Origin: Aureispira anguillae
GTDB taxonomy: Bacteria; Bacteroidota; Bacteroidia; Chitinophagales; Saprospiraceae
Length of the DNA stretch: 64,000 nt
Assembly (NCBI RefSeq): GCF_026000115.1
Contig: NZ_AP026867.1
Location: 3,963,716 to 4,027,715 of the forward strand
Reading direction: 5' to 3'
Positions 33,319 to 43,083 of the stretch are shown here, in pieces. The first letter of the stretch is position 1; each line of letters begins with the position of its first letter. The position numbers were made by a program, and so were the translations under genes. Under the pieces are notes generated by a model. That model ran no database searches, had not been told where the DNA came from, and worked only from the letters and a program-made list of their open reading frames with translations.

Positions 33319-33326
33319 TATATTTG
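33319..33326 (+). promoter_or_regulatory. -7 element (TATATTTG) of the ClpB-like operon
   Basis: Matches TAnnTTTG and overlaps an in-frame TTG at 33324. The transcript would begin downstream of that TTG, so the ATG at 33357 is the better start. Confidence 0.65.
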
Positions 33327-33356
33327 TCAGTTGCTCATAAAAACCAACAATATCAG

Positions 33357-36300
33357 ATGCAAAAAATAAAACTACCCTTTCACATTGTACAGCTTCAAAT
33401 AGAAAACAACCCAGATATTATTACGACTCCTATCTTGGATAATCAGGTTCTTTGGGTCAATATACCTGCGCCTATGATGGCTGGCAAATTTGGAGATAGC
33501 TACCAAGACAAACTATTGGACAAAGGGGAGTATTATACCTTGCTAGATTATTATGTACAAGGTGATTTTGAGCAAAAAAAAGTAAGCGTTCAATTCAAAG
33601 CTGGCAAATCACAGATTGCCTTTAAGGAGTTGGAGGTAAGTTTTGATTATTTTCTCCAAACACACCAACAAGGATATTGGGCAGTAGTACCAGCCTTGGG
33701 AGTGGAAGCTTTTACCTTAGAAGAAGATGAAATTGAGGCCGCCGTTCAGGAAGCAATTCGTTTAGATTTTATGCGCAATAAGCGTCTTAATTTGCTACAA
33801 GATGTTATTTCTACCTTATGGTTTGATAAAGCAACATTGAGTACCCAAACGCTAGACCTCCGAACTTATACTCCTAGCGAAATTGCTTCGCTACAAGAAG
33901 CAAAGAAAAAAGAACTCTTGCCAAAAGTAGCACAGCAGGTATCCATCCATCAACAAACGCTTTTTGGTTACCAAAAAGAATTGCATCAATTGGCCGATAC
34001 CCTGAAAGGGAAATACAATAAAAATGTCTTGATTGTAGGACGTTCAGGAGTCGGAAAAAGTACGCTTGTATGGGAACTCGTGCATCGTCGTTCTTTTTAT
34101 AAAATTTCAAAAAACATCTGGGAAACCACAGCCTCTACCCTAATTAAGGAATTGAGCGGTGAGGTTGGCTGGCAAGAAAACTTAACCTTACTCTGCAAAG
34201 AGTTGATCCAACGAGGAGACATCCTTTTTATCCGCAACTTATTAGAATTATTTGAAGTTGGGCAATATCAAGGCAATAATGTCAGTGTTGCAGATTACTT
34301 GCGTGAATATATTGCTCGTGGAGAAATTACAATCATTTCTGAATGTACCGAAGAAGAATTTGCACGTATAGAAACTCGGAGTCCCAATTATATCAACAAC
34401 TTTCAAGTTATACAGCTCGCTGAACCACAAGACAACTTAGAACTAGAGCAAATTATTTTGGAGAAGGTCCAAAGCATTGCCCATACCGAAAAAATTGTCA
34501 TCGAAAAAGAAGCGATAAAAGAAACCATTCGACTGAACAAACGCTATACGCCCTATTCTGGTTTTCCTGGCAAACCCATTCGTTTTTTAGAAAGCATCCT
34601 TATTGGCTCTAAAGCCAAACAACATAACATGCTCAAAGAAAATCAATTGTATGTACTCAATCGTACAGAAGTAATCAAGACGTTTTGCGAAGAAACGGGC
34701 ATGCCTCCCTTTATAGTCGATCCTGCTATTCCTATGGACTTGCCTAAGATAGAACAATTTTTTAATGCCAATGTATTTGGGCAATCTCATGCCATTCAAA
34801 CGCTAACCAATATTTTGGCTTCGGTCAAAACAGCTTTATTGCGCCAAGGCAAGCCCATTGCTTCTATGCTATTTGTAGGCCCTACAGGAGTCGGAAAAAC
34901 AGAGATGGCAAAGGTATTAGCTCAATTTATGTTTGGGAGTAGAGATAAGATGATTCGTTTTGATATGAGCGAGTATTCTACCCCTTATGCTGTAGCAAGG
35001 CTTACGGGCGAGAGCTATTTTTCTGATGGCTTGCTTACTTCTGCTGTTCGGCGAGATCCATTCTGTGTCTTGCTCTTTGATGAATTAGAAAAAGCACATC
35101 CTTCTTTTAATGATTTGCTGCTTCAAATGTTGGGCGAAGGGCGACTGACAGATAGCCAAGGAAAAGTGGTTAATTTCTGTAGTTCTATCATCATTATGAC
35201 ATCCAATATTGGTGCAAAAAAACTACAAAACAATGGTATTGGTTGGGTTGAGGATAAAACCGAGCAGCGAGAAGCGGAGCATTTTCTCAATGAGGTACGC
35301 CATTATTTTCGACCAGAAATTTTTAACCGAATCGATCAAGTTGTTCCCTTTTATTCTCTAACCAAAGAGGTTGTTCGTTTTGTCGTTGAGCGAGAGCTAG
35401 ACATTCTAAAAAAACGGGAAGGCATCCTCCATAGAAATCTGGAATTTAAGCTTTCTGATACTTTATACGATGTCTTATGTACCAAAGGCTACCAACCCAA
35501 ATATGGTGCTAGAGCATTGCAACGAACGCTTCGAGAAGAATTAATTATTCCTTTAGCCCATCAGTTAAATCAATATAGTTTTGATGAAAAGTTGGTCTTA
35601 GAAGTAGATATTCAAGACGGAGCTATCCACATTGACATTGAAGCCGATCCACTCAAATTAGAATTGATGTTAGAAGAACTCACACAGAATGAGTATATGG
35701 ATTTTGCTAGTGAGTTGCGACAAAATATGGTTCAATTGTTTGAGGGGCGTTTTTATGTGCGATTACTCAGCGAATTGGATATACTCAAACGATCTAAGCG
35801 CAAGAACGCTAAGAAATTTTGGGCAAATGAAAAAAAATCGTTGCAGTTTACTAATTTCTTGGCGCTTCAAGACAAATTTGAGCAGCATCGCAAAACTGGG
35901 GAGCAGAATGAGTTGGAAATGGCACTGATTACAATGGGCTTAACTACGCTCAATACCAACTTATACAAAGCCATGGAGCAGTGGGAAAAAGACTACTTTG
36001 AACTAAAACTAGAACTTTATCGTACCCTTAAGACGGATAAAGAAGGGTTGTACTTGGGAATTTATGGCAAAGAACCCAAACGTTTATTGGATTATTATAC
36101 AAAAATTTGTGCTCAGAAGGGATTTAAGTGGTCTGCTCGTAGTGTTTGGTATCAAGAAGAAGTTTATAACGCTATGGTAGATGTCGAAAATGATCAGGGA
36201 GAAGTTATTCTTCAAGAAAAAGCACGCCAATACCACAAAAAAATCCTAAACCTCGAAGATCCAAATTGTTGGAAACCTGAAAAAAAAGAGGATGTCTTGC

Positions 36301-36626
36301 TTGGTATTGAATTGCTCATTGATGGCATTGGTGCCAATCTCTATCTCAATGAAGAAGAGGGCTGGCATCGTATTATTATAGCCGATCAAAAATATATGTA
36401 TTGGGTACAATCTAGTGCGCAAGACCTAAAAACCCCTGACGCTATTCATCGCAAAAGTTTTTTCCAAAAATACAAAAAAGCCCGTAGGACTTATTCTCCT
36501 ACCCATCTAGAAGATACTATTTTTAAATCTCCCAAACGAGAGTTACGCCCAGCAGAACAATTGCCTCATTTGATTAAAATTCTAGACCAATTGTTCATTC
36601 GAAAACTGGATGCGCTTTTATTTTAA
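33357..36626 (+). CDS. ClpB/ClpA-like double AAA+ ATPase with unusual D1 and extra domains
   Basis: 1089 residues from ATG at 33357. Residues 1-200 are a non-Clp N-terminal domain. D1 has Walker A GRSGVGKS (about 227-234), but where ClpB has a Walker B aspartate-glutamate this protein reads ILFIRNLLELF (about 289-299), so D1 probably binds but does not hydrolyse ATP. D2 is intact: GPTGVGKT (about 508), LLFDELEKAH (about 570), TSNIGA, and the Clp C-terminal small domain (PKYGARALQRTLREELIIPL). A further 290 residues of unknown type follow. It is probably an unfoldase or remodeler. The next gene starts 20 bp later. Confidence 0.85.
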   Translation: MQKIKLPFHIVQLQIENNPDIITTPILDNQVLWVNIPAPMMAGKFGDSYQDKLLDKGEYYTLLDYYVQGDFEQKKVSVQFKAGKSQIAFKELEVSFDYFLQTHQQGYWAVVPALGVEAFTLEEDEIEAAVQEAIRLDFMRNKRLNLLQDVISTLWFDKATLSTQTLDLRTYTPSEIASLQEAKKKELLPKVAQQVSIHQQTLFGYQKELHQLADTLKGKYNKNVLIVGRSGVGKSTLVWELVHRRSFYKISKNIWETTASTLIKELSGEVGWQENLTLLCKELIQRGDILFIRNLLELFEVGQYQGNNVSVADYLREYIARGEITIISECTEEEFARIETRSPNYINNFQVIQLAEPQDNLELEQIILEKVQSIAHTEKIVIEKEAIKETIRLNKRYTPYSGFPGKPIRFLESILIGSKAKQHNMLKENQLYVLNRTEVIKTFCEETGMPPFIVDPAIPMDLPKIEQFFNANVFGQSHAIQTLTNILASVKTALLRQGKPIASMLFVGPTGVGKTEMAKVLAQFMFGSRDKMIRFDMSEYSTPYAVARLTGESYFSDGLLTSAVRRDPFCVLLFDELEKAHPSFNDLLLQMLGEGRLTDSQGKVVNFCSSIIIMTSNIGAKKLQNNGIGWVEDKTEQREAEHFLNEVRHYFRPEIFNRIDQVVPFYSLTKEVVRFVVERELDILKKREGILHRNLEFKLSDTLYDVLCTKGYQPKYGARALQRTLREELIIPLAHQLNQYSFDEKLVLEVDIQDGAIHIDIEADPLKLELMLEELTQNEYMDFASELRQNMVQLFEGRFYVRLLSELDILKRSKRKNAKKFWANEKKSLQFTNFLALQDKFEQHRKTGEQNELEMALITMGLTTLNTNLYKAMEQWEKDYFELKLELYRTLKTDKEGLYLGIYGKEPKRLLDYYTKICAQKGFKWSARSVWYQEEVYNAMVDVENDQGEVILQEKARQYHKKILNLEDPNCWKPEKKEDVLLGIELLIDGIGANLYLNEEEGWHRIIIADQKYMYWVQSSAQDLKTPDAIHRKSFFQKYKKARRTYSPTHLEDTIFKSPKRELRPAEQLPHLIKILDQLFIRKLDALLF

Positions 36627-38843: not shown

Positions 38844-39941
38844 ATGCTACTATTTCTTTATATCCTTTGTTTCTTTTTCATCGTTGTTGTCTGTTTTTTA
38901 ATCAAAACAAAGATTCGGCATCAAAAAAAAACGCTTCTTCCCAAACAGCTTGACAGAAGCTGGTTTGCCAATACCACAACTCCCCTAACGCCTGCCGACT
39001 ACCAACGTTCAGGTGACCAAACCTTTTTAACCTATCCAGAATGGTTCTTGGTTTTTAGCCCCGCCGAACAAGCGCTTTATTTCAAAGAAAAAACCTCAAC
39101 AACCTTTCCTTATGAGCAACATGTAGAGCAATTTTGGGACAGTTATGCCTTACTATCCGAAGAAATCAAGACACATTTTCCCTATAATAATCAATACCAT
39201 ACCATGATAAAAGTCATTGGCTACAGCACCATGATAGAATATAGAGGGAAACTCTTGTATGAACAAAGCATTGGTCGCCTGACCGCTTTAATTCCTTCCA
39301 AAATGACGGCTGAAGATCAATTTTATGGTGAATTTATGCAACGTTATGTCAATTTTATACAAAAAGAGCCCTGGTATTTGTATCCTTTCTTGCAAGAATT
39401 TAAACAACTTTGGATGCACACTACTTGGTTAGAATGGAATATCATTCGAAAACTCGAACGCCGTATTTTTATCAGTGTAGAGTTGTTATTCAAAGCCTTC
39501 TATGGTTCGGGACTTGGTTTAGGAACAAAATCCACTTATGGTGTTGCCGCTCCTGTGACAGCGGTACTGATTGATCAACTTCCCCCCAACCACGAAGTAA
39601 CTGTCCCTGAATTAAAGTTGGTAGATGTAATTTCCAATGAAGCAACGCTTGTTACCCTGCCTCGTTACGCTGCATTTACAGCAGCGCTTACCAAATTGAT
39701 AAAAACAGGGGTTCAAATCAAAGAAATAGCAGGCAATACCTCCTCTATTCTATTAACCATAGTTGTTCCTATCGATTGGCAAGCGGTTACAACCCTAACC
39801 CAGCCCATTTTTAAACAAATCATACCTACCCAACCATCAAAACAACGAGTTGCTTTGGTTGTACTCATAAAAGACTTATCAACTCTAATGCTCCAGTTGG
39901 AACAAGCACAAATTCCCATTGAACATATCTTTGACTACTAA
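38844..39941 (+). CDS. Conserved membrane-anchored protein of unknown function
   Basis: 365 residues with one N-terminal helix (LLFLYILCFFFIVVVCFLI) and a soluble part. The stretch QTFLTYPEWFLVFSPAEQAL is strongly conserved-looking and recalls a family of bacterial hypothetical proteins, but I know no function. A second weakly hydrophobic region lies near residues 205-250. The Lgt-like gene begins 13 bp after its stop, so the two are co-transcribed and may act in one membrane process. Confidence 0.6.
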   Translation: MLLFLYILCFFFIVVVCFLIKTKIRHQKKTLLPKQLDRSWFANTTTPLTPADYQRSGDQTFLTYPEWFLVFSPAEQALYFKEKTSTTFPYEQHVEQFWDSYALLSEEIKTHFPYNNQYHTMIKVIGYSTMIEYRGKLLYEQSIGRLTALIPSKMTAEDQFYGEFMQRYVNFIQKEPWYLYPFLQEFKQLWMHTTWLEWNIIRKLERRIFISVELLFKAFYGSGLGLGTKSTYGVAAPVTAVLIDQLPPNHEVTVPELKLVDVISNEATLVTLPRYAAFTAALTKLIKTGVQIKEIAGNTSSILLTIVVPIDWQAVTTLTQPIFKQIIPTQPSKQRVALVVLIKDLSTLMLQLEQAQIPIEHIFDY

Positions 39942-39954
39942 ATCTATTTTATCA

Positions 39955-40749
39955 ATGACCTTTCCATTAACCTTTCACCTCGGTCCGTTTAGCATCAACG
40001 CACATTTAGTTTTTGAGGTTTTGGGGATCACCCTTGGGTTTCGATACTTCTTGTATTTGCGTCGCCAACAAACAGACCATATTTCAGAATCAAATCGCAT
40101 CTGGATTTTTATAGGCGCAGCTTTTGGAGCACTCTTTTTTTCTCGTTTAGTTGGCAGTTTAGAAAACCCTTTTATTTTCTTTAGTGCTAAAAATTCATTC
40201 TTATATTTCTATGCGCACAAAACAATAGTAGGGGCACTATTTGGAGGCTTATTGTGTGTAGAACTCATCAAAAAAATCATTGGCGAGCAGTCTTCTTCTG
40301 GCAATCTATTTGTTTATCCTCTTTTATTGGGCATGATGATTGGCCGAATTGGCTGCTTTTCTATGGGAGTTTATGAACAAACCTATGGCATTCCCTCTGA
40401 TTTGCCTTGGGCATTAGACCTAGGAGATGGCATTCTTCGGCATCCAGTTGCTCTATATGAAATACTGTTCTTAGGTTGTCTTTGGGGCTTTTTGTTGCTC
40501 TTGGAAAAGAAAATTACATTTAAAGAAGGGCTGCGATTTCGTTTTTTTTTAATGGCTTATTTCTGTTTCCGATTCTTACTTGATTTTATAAAACCTGGCT
40601 ATAAATTTTCTTTTGGGTGGAGCACCATACAAATTACTTGTTTACTGGGGTTACTCTATTATTGGCAAACTTTTTATGCTTTGTTGATGAACCCCCAAGT
40701 ATTACTCCAATACCCTTCAAAAAAAACTAATCCAACCATTATTAACTAA
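39955..40749 (+). CDS. Lgt-like integral membrane enzyme, non-canonical
   Basis: 264 residues from ATG at 39955; an upstream TTG at 39919 lies inside the previous gene. About seven membrane helices are seen. Fold and several motifs follow prolipoprotein diacylglyceryl transferase (PLTFHLGPFSINAH at the start; RHPVALYEILF near the end). Key Lgt features are missing: the essential His region reads KTIVGALFGG, and the signature GRxGNFxNxE reads GRIGCFSMGVYEQTYG followed by DLPWALDLGDG. It therefore belongs to a distinct Lgt-like group. It probably uses phospholipid as donor or substrate. The Tes-like radical SAM gene follows. Confidence 0.75.
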   Translation: MTFPLTFHLGPFSINAHLVFEVLGITLGFRYFLYLRRQQTDHISESNRIWIFIGAAFGALFFSRLVGSLENPFIFFSAKNSFLYFYAHKTIVGALFGGLLCVELIKKIIGEQSSSGNLFVYPLLLGMMIGRIGCFSMGVYEQTYGIPSDLPWALDLGDGILRHPVALYEILFLGCLWGFLLLLEKKITFKEGLRFRFFLMAYFCFRFLLDFIKPGYKFSFGWSTIQITCLLGLLYYWQTFYALLMNPQVLLQYPSKKTNPTIIN

Positions 40750-40752
40750 TAA

Positions 40753-40862
40753 TACTCTGTTATTTTTTTAATCAATCGAATACGATTAGCTTCGCTGCTA
40801 GGTTAGCTAGTGCGCTATCGCCTATGAGCCAGCATAACTGGGTTCGGTTTTTTAACGGAGTA
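40753..40862. repeat. Mosaic palindromic repeat, copy 3
   Basis: Arms TACTCTGTT (40753-40761) and AACGGAGTA (40854-40862) pair with one G:U. It begins 3 bp after the Lgt-like stop. The interior contains CGAATACGATT, TGCTAGG, AGTGCGCTAT and GAGCCAGCATAACTGGG, each shared with another copy. Confidence 0.75.
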
Positions 40863-40889
40863 ATGTAACTAACACAACCATTATTTATT

Positions 40890-42296
40890 ATGCGCAACTA
40901 TATTTATTATGACCATACCCAAAGCCTTTGTAACGAGTGCCACCGAACCATCAATGCTAAAATAATTTTTGAAAATGAGAAGGTCTATCTAAGCAAATAT
41001 TGTCCAACTCATGGTCCTCAAAAAGTATTAATAGCAGATGACATCGACTATTACAAGCAAATACGCAACTACAATAAAGCCTCTGAATATCCACTCCAAC
41101 CACATACCGAAACTAAATATGGCTGCCCTTACGATTGTGGTATTTGTCCAGATCATGAACAGCATTCTTGTTTGACTCTAATTGAGGTGACCGATCGCTG
41201 TAATTTGACCTGTCCTGTTTGTTATGCCAGCTCCTCTCCTTCTTGTGGTAACCATCGTAGTTTAGAAGAAATAGAGCGAATGCTAGATGCTATTGTTGCC
41301 AGCGAAGGAGAACCTGATGTGGTGCAAATTAGTGGAGGAGAACCCACCATCCACCCTCAATTTTTCGAAATTTTAGATTTGGCTAAATCTAAGCCCATCA
41401 AACATCTAATGCTCAATACGAATGGTTTGCGCATTGGAACCGATTTAGAGTTCGCCAAACGCCTAGCCAGCTATATGCCACGTTTTGAAATCTATTTACA
41501 ATTTGATTCTTTTGAATCCGAAGCCTTACTAAAACTAAGGGGGAAAGACCTAACCAAAATTCGGCAGAAAGCCTTAGACCATCTCAATCAGCTCAATTTG
41601 TCTACAACCTTGGTGGTCACCCTACAAAAGGGATTAAATGATCACGAAATCGGCAAAATCATTAACTATGCCTTAAAACAAAAATGCGTACGAGGTGTTA
41701 CTTTTCAACCCATACAAATTAGCGGTCGTCTAGAGGATTTTGATCCTAGTTTAGATCGCTTAACCAATACCGAAGTTCGCCGAAAAATACTCGAACAAGC
41801 TCCTATTTTCAAGCCCAATGATTTAATACCCGTCCCCTGTAATCCCGACGCACTAATCATGGGCTATGCGCTAAAAACAGCAGATAAAGTATTTCCTTTG
41901 ACCAACCTCATCGACCCTGAAAGCTTGCTCAACAACTCCAAAAACACCATTGTTTATGAACATGACCAAGTTCTAAAAGGCAAAATTTTAGAGGTTTTTA
42001 GCACTGCTAAATCGGTTGATACTGTTCAAGAAGATTTTCACGATTTACTTTGTTGTTTACCCAATATTGTTGCTCCTGAACTGAACTATAGCAACCTATT
42101 TCGAATCATTGTCATGAATTTTATGGATGCCTATGACTTTGATGTTCGTGCCATCAAAAAATCTTGTGTCCACATTGTTAATACCGAAGGAAAAATTATT
42201 CCTTTTGAAACGATGAATCTGTTCTACCGAAATGATGACCTAAAACTAAAGTTGCGAGTTATTCAAAATGAAATACTTCCTTCATCGTCCAATTAA
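40890..42296 (+). CDS. Radical SAM protein of the tetraether lipid synthase (Tes/MJ0619) type
   Basis: 468 residues. Ten cysteines lie in the N-terminal quarter in the order of archaeal Tes/MJ0619: a zinc- or rubredoxin-like part (Cys14, Cys17, Cys38 in CPTHG), an extra CX3CX2C set (YGCPYDCGICPDH, Cys79/83/86), Cys94, and the radical SAM CX3CX2C (DRCNLTCPVC, Cys104/108/111). VVQISGGEPTIHP is the SAM-binding GGEP motif. Archaeal Tes joins two lipid tails by C-C coupling; bacterial homologues with unproven roles exist. Context with an Lgt-like enzyme suggests a lipid substrate, which is inference. The start ATG lies 28 bp after repeat copy 3. Confidence 0.8.
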   Translation: MRNYIYYDHTQSLCNECHRTINAKIIFENEKVYLSKYCPTHGPQKVLIADDIDYYKQIRNYNKASEYPLQPHTETKYGCPYDCGICPDHEQHSCLTLIEVTDRCNLTCPVCYASSSPSCGNHRSLEEIERMLDAIVASEGEPDVVQISGGEPTIHPQFFEILDLAKSKPIKHLMLNTNGLRIGTDLEFAKRLASYMPRFEIYLQFDSFESEALLKLRGKDLTKIRQKALDHLNQLNLSTTLVVTLQKGLNDHEIGKIINYALKQKCVRGVTFQPIQISGRLEDFDPSLDRLTNTEVRRKILEQAPIFKPNDLIPVPCNPDALIMGYALKTADKVFPLTNLIDPESLLNNSKNTIVYEHDQVLKGKILEVFSTAKSVDTVQEDFHDLLCCLPNIVAPELNYSNLFRIIVMNFMDAYDFDVRAIKKSCVHIVNTEGKIIPFETMNLFYRNDDLKLKLRVIQNEILPSSSN

Positions 42297-42323
42297 TTAT
42301 TTTTCTCTATCAAAAATTACCGC

Positions 42324-42602
42324 ATGGAAGATTCAAATAAAGTTATCAGCATTAATTTGCTAGTTTTTATGATTTATACCCTTATAGTGCACACCACAGG
42401 AATAGTAGATCCTATTATATTTAGTAGTCTTATAGCCTTTTTTCACGCAACCGCTATTTTTATAATAGGTGTCATATTTACTTTAATAGAACGATCACAA
42501 AAAGAAAAAAAATCATTGGGGTTGTCCATGATTTTAGCTGCTTTGATCATCTTTATGATTGGTTTCTCGGCTTGTTTTGGAAGCCTTATGATACAATCTT
42601 GA
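42324..42602 (+). CDS. Small three-helix membrane protein, tandem copy A
   Basis: 92 residues with three hydrophobic helices (VISINLLVFMIYTLIVHTTG; SSLIAFFHATAIFIIGVIFT; SLGLSMILAALIIFMIGFSA) and a basic loop (ERSQKEKKS). The gene begins 27 bp after the radical SAM stop and is very similar to the next one, including the about 20 bp before the start. No family is recognised. Confidence 0.7.
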   Translation: MEDSNKVISINLLVFMIYTLIVHTTGIVDPIIFSSLIAFFHATAIFIIGVIFTLIERSQKEKKSLGLSMILAALIIFMIGFSACFGSLMIQS

Positions 42603-42700
42603 CCCTCGATTTCATCGATTTGAAATTGTTTAAAAATGGAGTTTTATTGAACTGAGCCTATGGCGAACTCACGTAAGTATAATGAGTCCCCCCCGAAGGA

Positions 42701-42768
42701 GCAGCGAAGCTAAATTTTTAGATAAACAAGGCACCCCGAAGGAGCACGAAGTAAAAATTAGCTTCGCT
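42701..42768. repeat. Inverted repeat and short direct repeats between tandem copies
   Basis: CAGCGAAGCTAAATTTTTA (42701-42719) pairs with TAAAAATTAGCTTCGCTG (42751-42768), one base bulged. CCCCGAAGGAGCA occurs twice, near 42690 and 42733. It lies between the two duplicated genes. Confidence 0.7.
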
Positions 42769-42810
42769 GATTTTCAGTTCTTAAACAACTTCCCTATCAA
42801 AAATTACCGC

Positions 42811-43083
42811 ATGGAACATTCAAATAAAGTTATCAGTATTAATTTGTTAGTTTTTATAATTTATACCCTTATACTGCACACTACAGGGATAGGAGATCCC
42901 ATTCGATTTAGTGGTTTTGTGGCCTTTATTCACGCAGCCGCTATTTTTATAATAGGTGCCATATTTGCTTTAATAGAACGATCACAAAAAGAAAAAAAAT
43001 CATTGGGATTATCCATGATTTTAGCAGCATTAGTCATTCTTACTATTGGTTTTTCGGCTTGCTTGGGAAGCCTTATGGTATAA
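42811..43083 (+). CDS. Small three-helix membrane protein, tandem copy B
   Basis: 90 residues from ATG at 42811; the frame is open further upstream to 42682, but the homology with copy A begins at this ATG and its leader. It has the same three helices and ERSQKEKKS loop, with most differences conservative (Met/Ile/Val, Thr/Ala). The duplication includes part of the 3' flank (ATCGATTTGAAA occurs after both). It ends at a terminator shared with the convergent lectin-like gene. Confidence 0.7.
   Translation: MEHSNKVISINLLVFIIYTLILHTTGIGDPIRFSGFVAFIHAAAIFIIGAIFALIERSQKEKKSLGLSMILAALVILTIGFSACLGSLMV

Follow-up and report, generated by a model that had tools for sequence, protein, structure and literature searches.

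Why should a bacterium encode, side by side, a membrane protein resembling the lipoprotein-modifying enzyme Lgt and a radical S-adenosylmethionine (SAM) protein resembling the archaeal lipid-coupling enzyme Tes? This question is raised by a locus of Aureispira anguillae, contained in the window analysed here, a single stretch of 64,000 nt (C1:3963716-4027715 of the 7.8 Mb genome) whose positions are used as coordinates throughout. A first-pass annotation had suggested that the pair makes an unusual membrane lipid or a lipid-modified product, an interpretation that is partly supported by the present analysis. It was found that a third component accompanies the Lgt-like and radical SAM (rSAM) proteins, namely a tiny membrane protein with a Cys near the end of its last transmembrane (TM) helix, termed the TM-Cys protein, and that co-operation of these three parts is strongly supported. 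Loci and genomes are denoted by L and G numbers, respectively, and papers are cited by PubMed Central (PMC) number.

Conservation of the gene pair

A scan of named genomes for rSAM relatives retrieved at least 581 relatives in 591 stretches, and the best 80 loci were used for neighbourhood counts. An Lgt-like gene lay within the examined stretch in 78 of these 80 loci (in two as two open frames), the exceptions being L055, which lacks one, and L110, which starts at a contig edge. The distance from the end of the Lgt-like gene to the start of the rSAM gene was 60 nt or less in 64 loci, 61-1000 nt in nine and greater in five. Amongst 395 genomes of the phylum, with limits of E < 1e-100 for a close rSAM and E ≤ 1e-20 for an Lgt-like protein, an Lgt-like gene was present in all 31 genomes with a close rSAM, compared with one (G215) of the 364 others; amongst 199 genomes of the family it was present in 18 of the 20 with rSAM and in none of the 179 without. 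The family exceptions were G027, in which a contig end truncates the Lgt-like gene, and G121, whose genome is 80% complete. In three of the 364 other phylum genomes an rSAM of greater distance is present (E between 4e-44 and 1e-53), and next to one of these (L132) an Lgt-family gene, itself more distant and scoring 65.8 bits with the profile built here, was missed at the 1e-20 limit. Both genes are present, though on different contigs, in G014, G146, G196, G232 and G465. These counts are not independent trials, as the two samples share genomes and their members are related; moreover, the searches scored part of the first-look candidates of each genome (up to six in the 395-genome Lgt-like search, and up to 13 and 26 in the family searches for Lgt-like and tiny proteins, respectively), so absence is not proof. 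The conserved co-occurrence that the first-pass annotation had named as its own test was thus found, and this strongly conserved pairing is not chance.

In a tree of 34 rSAMs, the proteins accompanied by Lgt-like genes form one side of a branch whose support (83/71) is not strong, with several long branches; L055, despite having no adjacent Lgt-like gene, was counted in this group. The same tree places the rSAM of L115, on a contig labelled Limnohabitans (Pseudomonadota), with that of Flavobacterium buctense (100/100), and L115 is probably a mislabelled or mixed metagenome-assembled genome (MAG). At L059 and L093 the Lgt-like gene, which may be broken or misassembled, comprises two separate open frames upstream of an open rSAM frame. 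The Lgt-like gene of G215 (L140:6653-7498) is the only one amongst the 395 genomes without an rSAM match in its own genome, and has two chance-looking TM-Cys frames nearby.

Tiny cysteine proteins as a third component

The first-pass annotation had described two duplicated tiny membrane proteins downstream of the rSAM gene. The duplication stands, the window copies being 80% identical to each other; these proteins are, however, not an appendage but a conserved third component of the module. Directly after the rSAM gene, 99 loci (4 of them duplicates) carried one (70 loci), two (16), three (5) or four (1) Cys-bearing tiny hydrophobic frames, though a few of the extra frames may be chance. None was seen at seven loci: L030, L053 and L111 are at contig ends, L041 meets unread bases, the frame of L037 was missed by the scan, and L055 and L112 are weighed below.

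The Cys was also evaluated in frames picked without regard to it, namely the first frame starting no more than 60 nt after the rSAM stop, kept if its grand average of hydropathy (GRAVY) exceeded 0.6. Removal of five duplicates from 100 loci left 95, of which two had less than 250 bases of room and five had no frame start within 60 nt (L035, L055, L085, L096 and L112). The remaining 88 first frames yielded 82 after GRAVY filtering; the six dropped (L038, L041, L060, L100, L115 and L127) were cases in which a longer overlapping frame had been picked. By other listings a tiny Cys gene is present in L035, L038, L060, L085, L096, L100, L115 and L127, but not in L041, L055 or L112. A common Cys column was found in 79 of the 82 frames (52/54 of a short class and 27/28 of a long class), and in the short class no other column is as well conserved. 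Around this Cys, Gly or Ser occupies position -2 in 77/79 and position -4 in 79/79 frames, whilst only G80 and C84 are invariant amongst 15 long-class proteins. Close pairs of tiny genes gave dN/dS values of 0.03-0.21 (median 0.10, 31 overlapping pairs), indicative of purifying selection, and tandem copies are 28-60% identical (37 pairs). Because an excess of Lys and Arg precedes the last TM helix (in the short class, 4.6 K/R vs 0.3 D/E), the Cys is predicted by the positive-inside rule to lie at the outer face of the membrane.

Both window copies belong to the long class, and a third copy lies unlinked, 0.6 Mb away, in the same genome. With a genome search model that covers the long class only, this class was found in 14 of the 199 family genomes, 11 of these with rSAM. 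In the five genomes with an unlinked Lgt-like gene, a tiny gene lies beside the rSAM gene in four (L036, L037, L042 and L136; not L139) and beside the Lgt-like gene in G146, where a simpler tail pattern had missed the copy that later searches found. The lipo-invert family NF058595 was considered as an identity for the tiny proteins and rejected (14.7 and 13.0 bits against a cut-off of 37); its sub-threshold matches also occurred in 14/14 control genomes and are noise. In G076, where neither enzyme was detected, a 47-aa protein (GFSYC tail) and a 96-aa protein, both with a G-F-S-x-C tail, are encoded together (L164:262-707), beside two genes that presumably encode PrsW-type membrane proteases.

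The module in more distant relatives

Operons at L129-L131 encode rSAM (39-42% identity), an ICMT-family protein (PF04140), a DUF4395 protein (PF14340), an Lgt-like protein and a TM-Cys protein, the ICMT and DUF4395 matches to Pfam having been run for L130 and L131. In eukaryotes the ICMT family methylates S-lipidated cysteine, and the ICMT-family and DUF4395 products of these operons may have the same cysteine or lipid as their target. In plasmid records of the Actinomycetota Mycobacterium branderi, M. avium and Nonomuraea gerenzanensis, the gene for an rSAM of 31-33% identity follows an Lgt-family gene and one or two genes for TM-Cys proteins that carry G-x-C-T-G close to the terminus.

Twelve of these distant loci belong to a genome or record that also contains an Lgt-like gene (on another contig in the case of L136), and a TM-Cys frame was present at 10 of the 12; of the two misses, L138 ends 84 bases after rSAM and L139 is a true absence in the stretch examined. 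No such frame was found at any of the four loci without an Lgt-like gene near rSAM (L133, L134, L143 and L145; 0/163 frames). A strict form of the TM-Cys filter had returned a frame in 5/10 Lgt-linked loci; the filter was relaxed after the strict-form tails were seen and then run on the same 14 loci, L138 and L139 being tested later, both without a frame, to give the total of 10/12. The relaxed filter gives chance-looking stray hits at L130 (1), L137 (2), L029 (2), L036 (1) and L140 (2). The gene trio recurs in two distant phyla.

Relationship of the radical SAM protein to Tes

The cysteine layout of rSAM, which the first-pass annotation had likened to that of Tes (MJ0619), comprises C14xxC17, C38PTH41G, C79xxxC83xxC86 and C104xxxC108xxC111, all invariant in 18 aligned rows that include the window protein. 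The pattern published for Tes is C9X2C12X20C33X2H36, C73/C77/C80 and CX3CX2C (PMC9433317), and rSAM thus carries the same ligands: a rubredoxin CX2CX20CX2H, a CX3CX2C auxiliary site and a radical SAM CX3CX2C. Pfam assigned a Radical_SAM domain (91.4 bits) and an N-terminal zinc ribbon (Zn_ribbon_HMPTM), and the best sequence match in the PDB, with homology over the full length, was GDGT-MAS/Tes (7tol, E 1.5e-67). An AlphaFold2 model built with 34 sequences (mean predicted local distance difference test score, pLDDT, of 71.6; weak at residues 60-88, 106-118 and 347-393) matched Tes (7tom) best over its whole length (TM-score 0.76, E 3.4e-32). Amongst the 50 matches listed, the Tes folds scored 0.76 and 0.73 and all others 0.45 or less, the next being MoaA (0.45); the peptide enzymes SkfB, SuiB and EpeE were amongst the more distant matches. 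Likeness to Tes therefore extends to fold, to rubredoxin, N-terminal cluster and radical SAM ligands, and to the labile Met439 of Tes, with which rSAM M409 aligns.

Differences from Tes lie in the C-terminal domain and the genetic setting. C317, C388, C389 and C426 are invariant in the 18 rows, two Cys places of Tes align with S425 and E440, and I429 takes the place of Tes Tyr459, so that there is no equivalent of that residue; the Tyr459 and Met439 variants of Tes are active in vitro (PMC9433317). Unlike Tes, rSAM is also encoded in an operon with Lgt-like and TM-Cys genes. It scored 286.4 bits against the Tes model NF045702 (cut-off 450) and 323.4 bits against its best NCBIfam match, that of the radical SAM (seleno)protein TrsS (NF045646, cut-off 490), placing it below both. 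Since rSAM falls under the curated Tes cut-off, the chemistry of Tes, which joins chain ends by two radical steps (PMC9433317), cannot simply be transferred to it. Mss, a bacterial membrane-spanning lipid synthase that couples two fatty acids, is kept apart from Tes (PMC11868695).

Amongst the matches listed, the nearest named relative of rSAM was from an uncultured Aureispira (Saprospiraceae, Bacteroidota; 84% identical), and carriers include the common genera Flavobacterium, Maribacter and Chitinophaga. The rubredoxin His is replaced by Cys in L135, and the N-terminal CX3CX2C is absent from three Actinomycetota rSAMs and from L132, L134 and L145. The rSAM at L133:6864-8321 (G262), of the same phylum as the window, exceeds the Tes cut-off (493.8 bits) and is, by the NF045702 model, a bacterial Tes; no Lgt-like gene was found in the stretch examined. 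That of L134 falls just below (441.9 bits).

Relationship of the Lgt-like protein to Lgt

Canonical Lgt uses phosphatidylglycerol as donor of the diacylglyceryl group that it places on the lipobox Cys (PMC4728403). The Lgt-like protein was recognized by Pfam LGT (PF01790; 66.5 bits, above the cut-off of 24.9) but not by the equivalog TIGR00544 (26.7 bits, cut-off 118.9), and the sole PDB fold match of its model (pLDDT 89) with E ≤ 0.001 was E. coli Lgt (5azb, TM-score 0.57). The profile comparison proposed in the first-pass annotation hence bore out kinship with both the LGT and Tes families, whilst neither protein reached the cut-off of the characterised family. The reported loss of the canonical His and of the GNFxNxE signature was likewise confirmed, the protein reading GRIGCFSMG where Lgt has GRLGNFINGE. 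His17, invariant in 20 rows, aligns with the Tyr of a canonical Lgt (L001) and is Tyr in L129-L131 and Gln in L140; no His103 is present, distant relatives having [KR][TS][IV] just before that place, and the R and C of GRIGC are also kept in those relatives. Shared with Lgt are the domain, the fold, and Arg143 and Arg239 (here R131 and R206), which are amongst 38 positions invariant in 20 rows. In E. coli Lgt, these two arginines bind the diacylglyceryl part and belong to a cavity, where they face the periplasm (PMC4728403).

A divergent Lgt, MSMEG_5408, has the same Y26H and N146C changes as the window protein and is presumed to be of low activity (PMC13251419); the term 'radical SAM' does not occur in the text of that paper. 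The A. anguillae genome encodes two further LGT-family genes (201.3 and 129.9 bits).

Proposed function and alternatives

We propose, with a probability of roughly 0.45, that the module is an enzyme-plus-substrate system in which the Lgt-like protein lipidates the Cys of the tiny protein and the Tes-like rSAM alters the lipid chains. The tiny proteins would be membrane-embedded acceptors, the last TM helix of which would follow a basic, presumably cytoplasmic loop and end outside in a G-[LF]-[GS]-x-C tail, with the geometry of a lipoprotein signal peptide. The Lgt-like protein would move a diacylglyceryl-type group from a phospholipid onto the tail Cys, and rSAM would act on the hydrocarbon chains by 5'-deoxyadenosyl-radical hydrogen abstraction, coupling or otherwise altering a chain, such that the end product would be a lipid-modified membrane peptide with unusual chains. 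The proposal builds on the conservation and co-occurrence of the genes, their architecture, the motifs of the metal sites, the predicted folds and the shared Cys column, from which we infer the membrane topology (from charge alone), the transfer of lipid, the radical reaction on it and the order of steps. In an arrangement that we consider quite improbable, the TM-helix Cys would be lipidated and the Tes-type enzyme would join the tail of that lipid to an inner-leaflet lipid; a small protein stapled across the bilayer by the resulting membrane-spanning lipid would, if real, be the first protein-bound counterpart of tetraether lipids.

Several observations weigh against the lipidated-acceptor proposal. 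The rSAM is presumably cytosolic, whereas the Cys is predicted to lie outside. The charge bias underlying that prediction is weaker in the long class, including the window copies (2.5 K/R vs 1.1 D/E). A C-terminal Cys as such is not evidence, being found in 130 of 293 small hydrophobic frames taken from elsewhere; column conservation was therefore used instead. Three first copies lack the Cys (L026, L079 and L083), although each has a Cys-bearing tandem copy, and at L055 and L112 no tiny gene was found in the stretch examined. The lipobox [LVI][ASTVI][GAS]C is not present, position -1 being often bulky (I, V or T predominate, with A or S in 8/79) and position -3 being L or F in most; the window copies read F-S-A-C and depart at -3 only. 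Tyr26, His103 and Asn146, essential in E. coli Lgt (PMC4728403, PMC13251419), are replaced by His, lost and replaced by Cys, respectively, His103 and Asn146 being variable in distant Lgt (PMC13251419). Three of the 14 long-class genomes (G015, G076 and G122) gave neither an rSAM nor an Lgt-like match at the limits applied, so the tiny family is either wider than the module or was left behind after its loss. In G232 both enzymes are present, unlinked, without a TM-Cys frame beside either (L139 and L141). The association between the tail and the enzyme pair is hence not strict in either direction.

Tiny conserved membrane proteins are often subunits, and it is conceivable, if somewhat unlikely, that the enzyme pair produces a free phospholipid, coupled or otherwise unusual, whilst the tiny proteins act as accessory subunits, keeping the enzymes at the membrane or shaping the site. 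The action of Tes on free lipids (PMC9433317) would agree with this, as would the position of the tiny gene, in the five genomes with an unlinked Lgt-like gene, beside rSAM in four and beside the Lgt-like gene in one. The one to four copies per locus, the low identity of tandem copies, the Cys-less extras and the unlinked third copy would nonetheless suit substrates better than a fixed subunit, and the Cys is the very position most conserved in the short class. Short, often multicopy genes adjoining rSAM, with a conserved C-terminal motif and a variable remainder, are also reminiscent of precursors of ribosomally synthesized and post-translationally modified peptides (RiPPs), for which the fold matches to SkfB, SuiB and EpeE would also speak: rSAM would crosslink the peptide before insertion (e.g. 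by a thioether or a C-C bond near the Cys) and the Lgt-like protein would anchor or finish it. We regard this as unlikely, for besides the Gly and Cys no invariant long-class residue could take a crosslink, Tes is by far the closest fold, and no further conserved gene that could encode a peptidase or exporter of the module was found near the 80 named loci.

Homology, metal sites and fold would all fit an rSAM that is simply a bacterial Tes, joining two tails into membrane-spanning lipids of the tetraether or diabolic type, as Zeng et al. (2022) proposed for bacterial Tes homologues generally (PMC8941075). Such a function is very unlikely here: rSAM misses the Tes cut-off that L133 of the same phylum reaches, its C-terminal residues differ at the Tes Cys and Tyr459 places, and the Lgt-like and tiny proteins would be left unexplained. 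Least probable of all is a tiny Cys protein that carries redox equivalents, sulfur or metal for rSAM beside an Lgt-like protein serving as an inactive membrane scaffold. Replacement of the E. coli-essential Lgt residues would accord with inactivity, and as Tes accumulates sulfur-added lipid when SAM is limiting (PMC9433317), a sulfur supply is a conceivable need; yet the invariant Lgt-like positions, the Arg143 and Arg239 equivalents included, suggest an active enzyme, and a lone Cys placed where a TM helix reaches the outer face would be an odd carrier.

Organization of the locus and neighbouring genes

All five open reading frames (ORFs) were found where the first-pass annotation had placed them (Table 1), the mechanical ORF start of the second tiny copy being 42682. 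The upstream protein, which that annotation had called conserved, proved otherwise: it occurs in 2 of the 199 family genomes, both of one genus, and was ruled out as a module member. These two are the A. anguillae genome and G127, each with a second copy elsewhere. Also adjoining the cassette in G127 is a counterpart of the 1100-aa protein at window positions 33324-36626, which resembles a Clp-type double AAA ATPase. Neighbours that we take to be LepA-, Dus- and RbfA-like were ruled out as partners, reflecting only shared chromosomal order. Promoters (14 found, 15.2 expected) and terminators (6 and 3.6) in the window were not informative, and a search of phage records gave no match.

Table 1. 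Positions of the module genes and their principal sites within the window
Feature	Coordinates	Strand	Basis
Upstream membrane-anchored protein, 365 aa	38844-39941		No Pfam/NCBIfam match with E ≤ 1
Lgt-like membrane protein, 264 aa, modelled with seven long helices	39955-40749	+	Pfam LGT, fold match 5azb
His17 codon, place of E. coli Lgt Tyr26	40003-40005	+	Invariant in 20 aligned rows
Lys89-Thr90, just before place of Lgt His103	40219-40224	+	Invariant in 20 rows
GRIGC motif, retaining Lgt Arg143 and with Cys for Asn146	40342-40356	+	G, R, G, C invariant in 20 rows
Arg206 codon, place of Lgt Arg239	40570-40572	+	Invariant in 20 rows
Tes-like radical SAM protein (rSAM), 468 aa	40890-42296	+	Profile, PDB sequence, fold
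Rubredoxin-type Fe site CX2C-X20-CX2H, residues 14-41	40929-41012	+	Invariant in 18 rows; Tes spacing
N-terminal auxiliary cluster site C79, C83, C86 with His89/His92	41124-41165	+	Alignment
Radical SAM CX3CX2C (C104, C108, C111)	41199-41222	+	Pfam Radical_SAM 91.4 bits
C-terminal domain with C317, C388-C389, M409, C426	41838-42167	+	Cys pattern unlike Tes
Tiny membrane protein copy 1, 92 aa, probably 3 TM; Cys84 at 42573-42575	42324-42602	+	ORF, alignment
Tiny membrane protein copy 2, 90 aa from homologous Met; Cys84 at 43060-43062	42811-43083	+	

Novelty and implications

The component superfamilies are already known; both enzymes miss the cut-offs of the characterised families, and we are not aware of another system in which parts of this kind are combined. 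A search of open-licence PMC papers found no account of the trio; a paper on graspetides (PMC8939145) was considered and is unrelated. Tes homologues have been reported as 456 bacterial proteins (PMC8941075) and in 281 bacterial MAGs (PMC11868695), in both cases with a role described as unproven. The module assigns to a large group of bacterial Tes relatives a constant partner enzyme and, as a probable substrate, a protein bearing one testable Cys, and counts of Tes homologues may mislead when taken as evidence for bacterial tetraether lipids.

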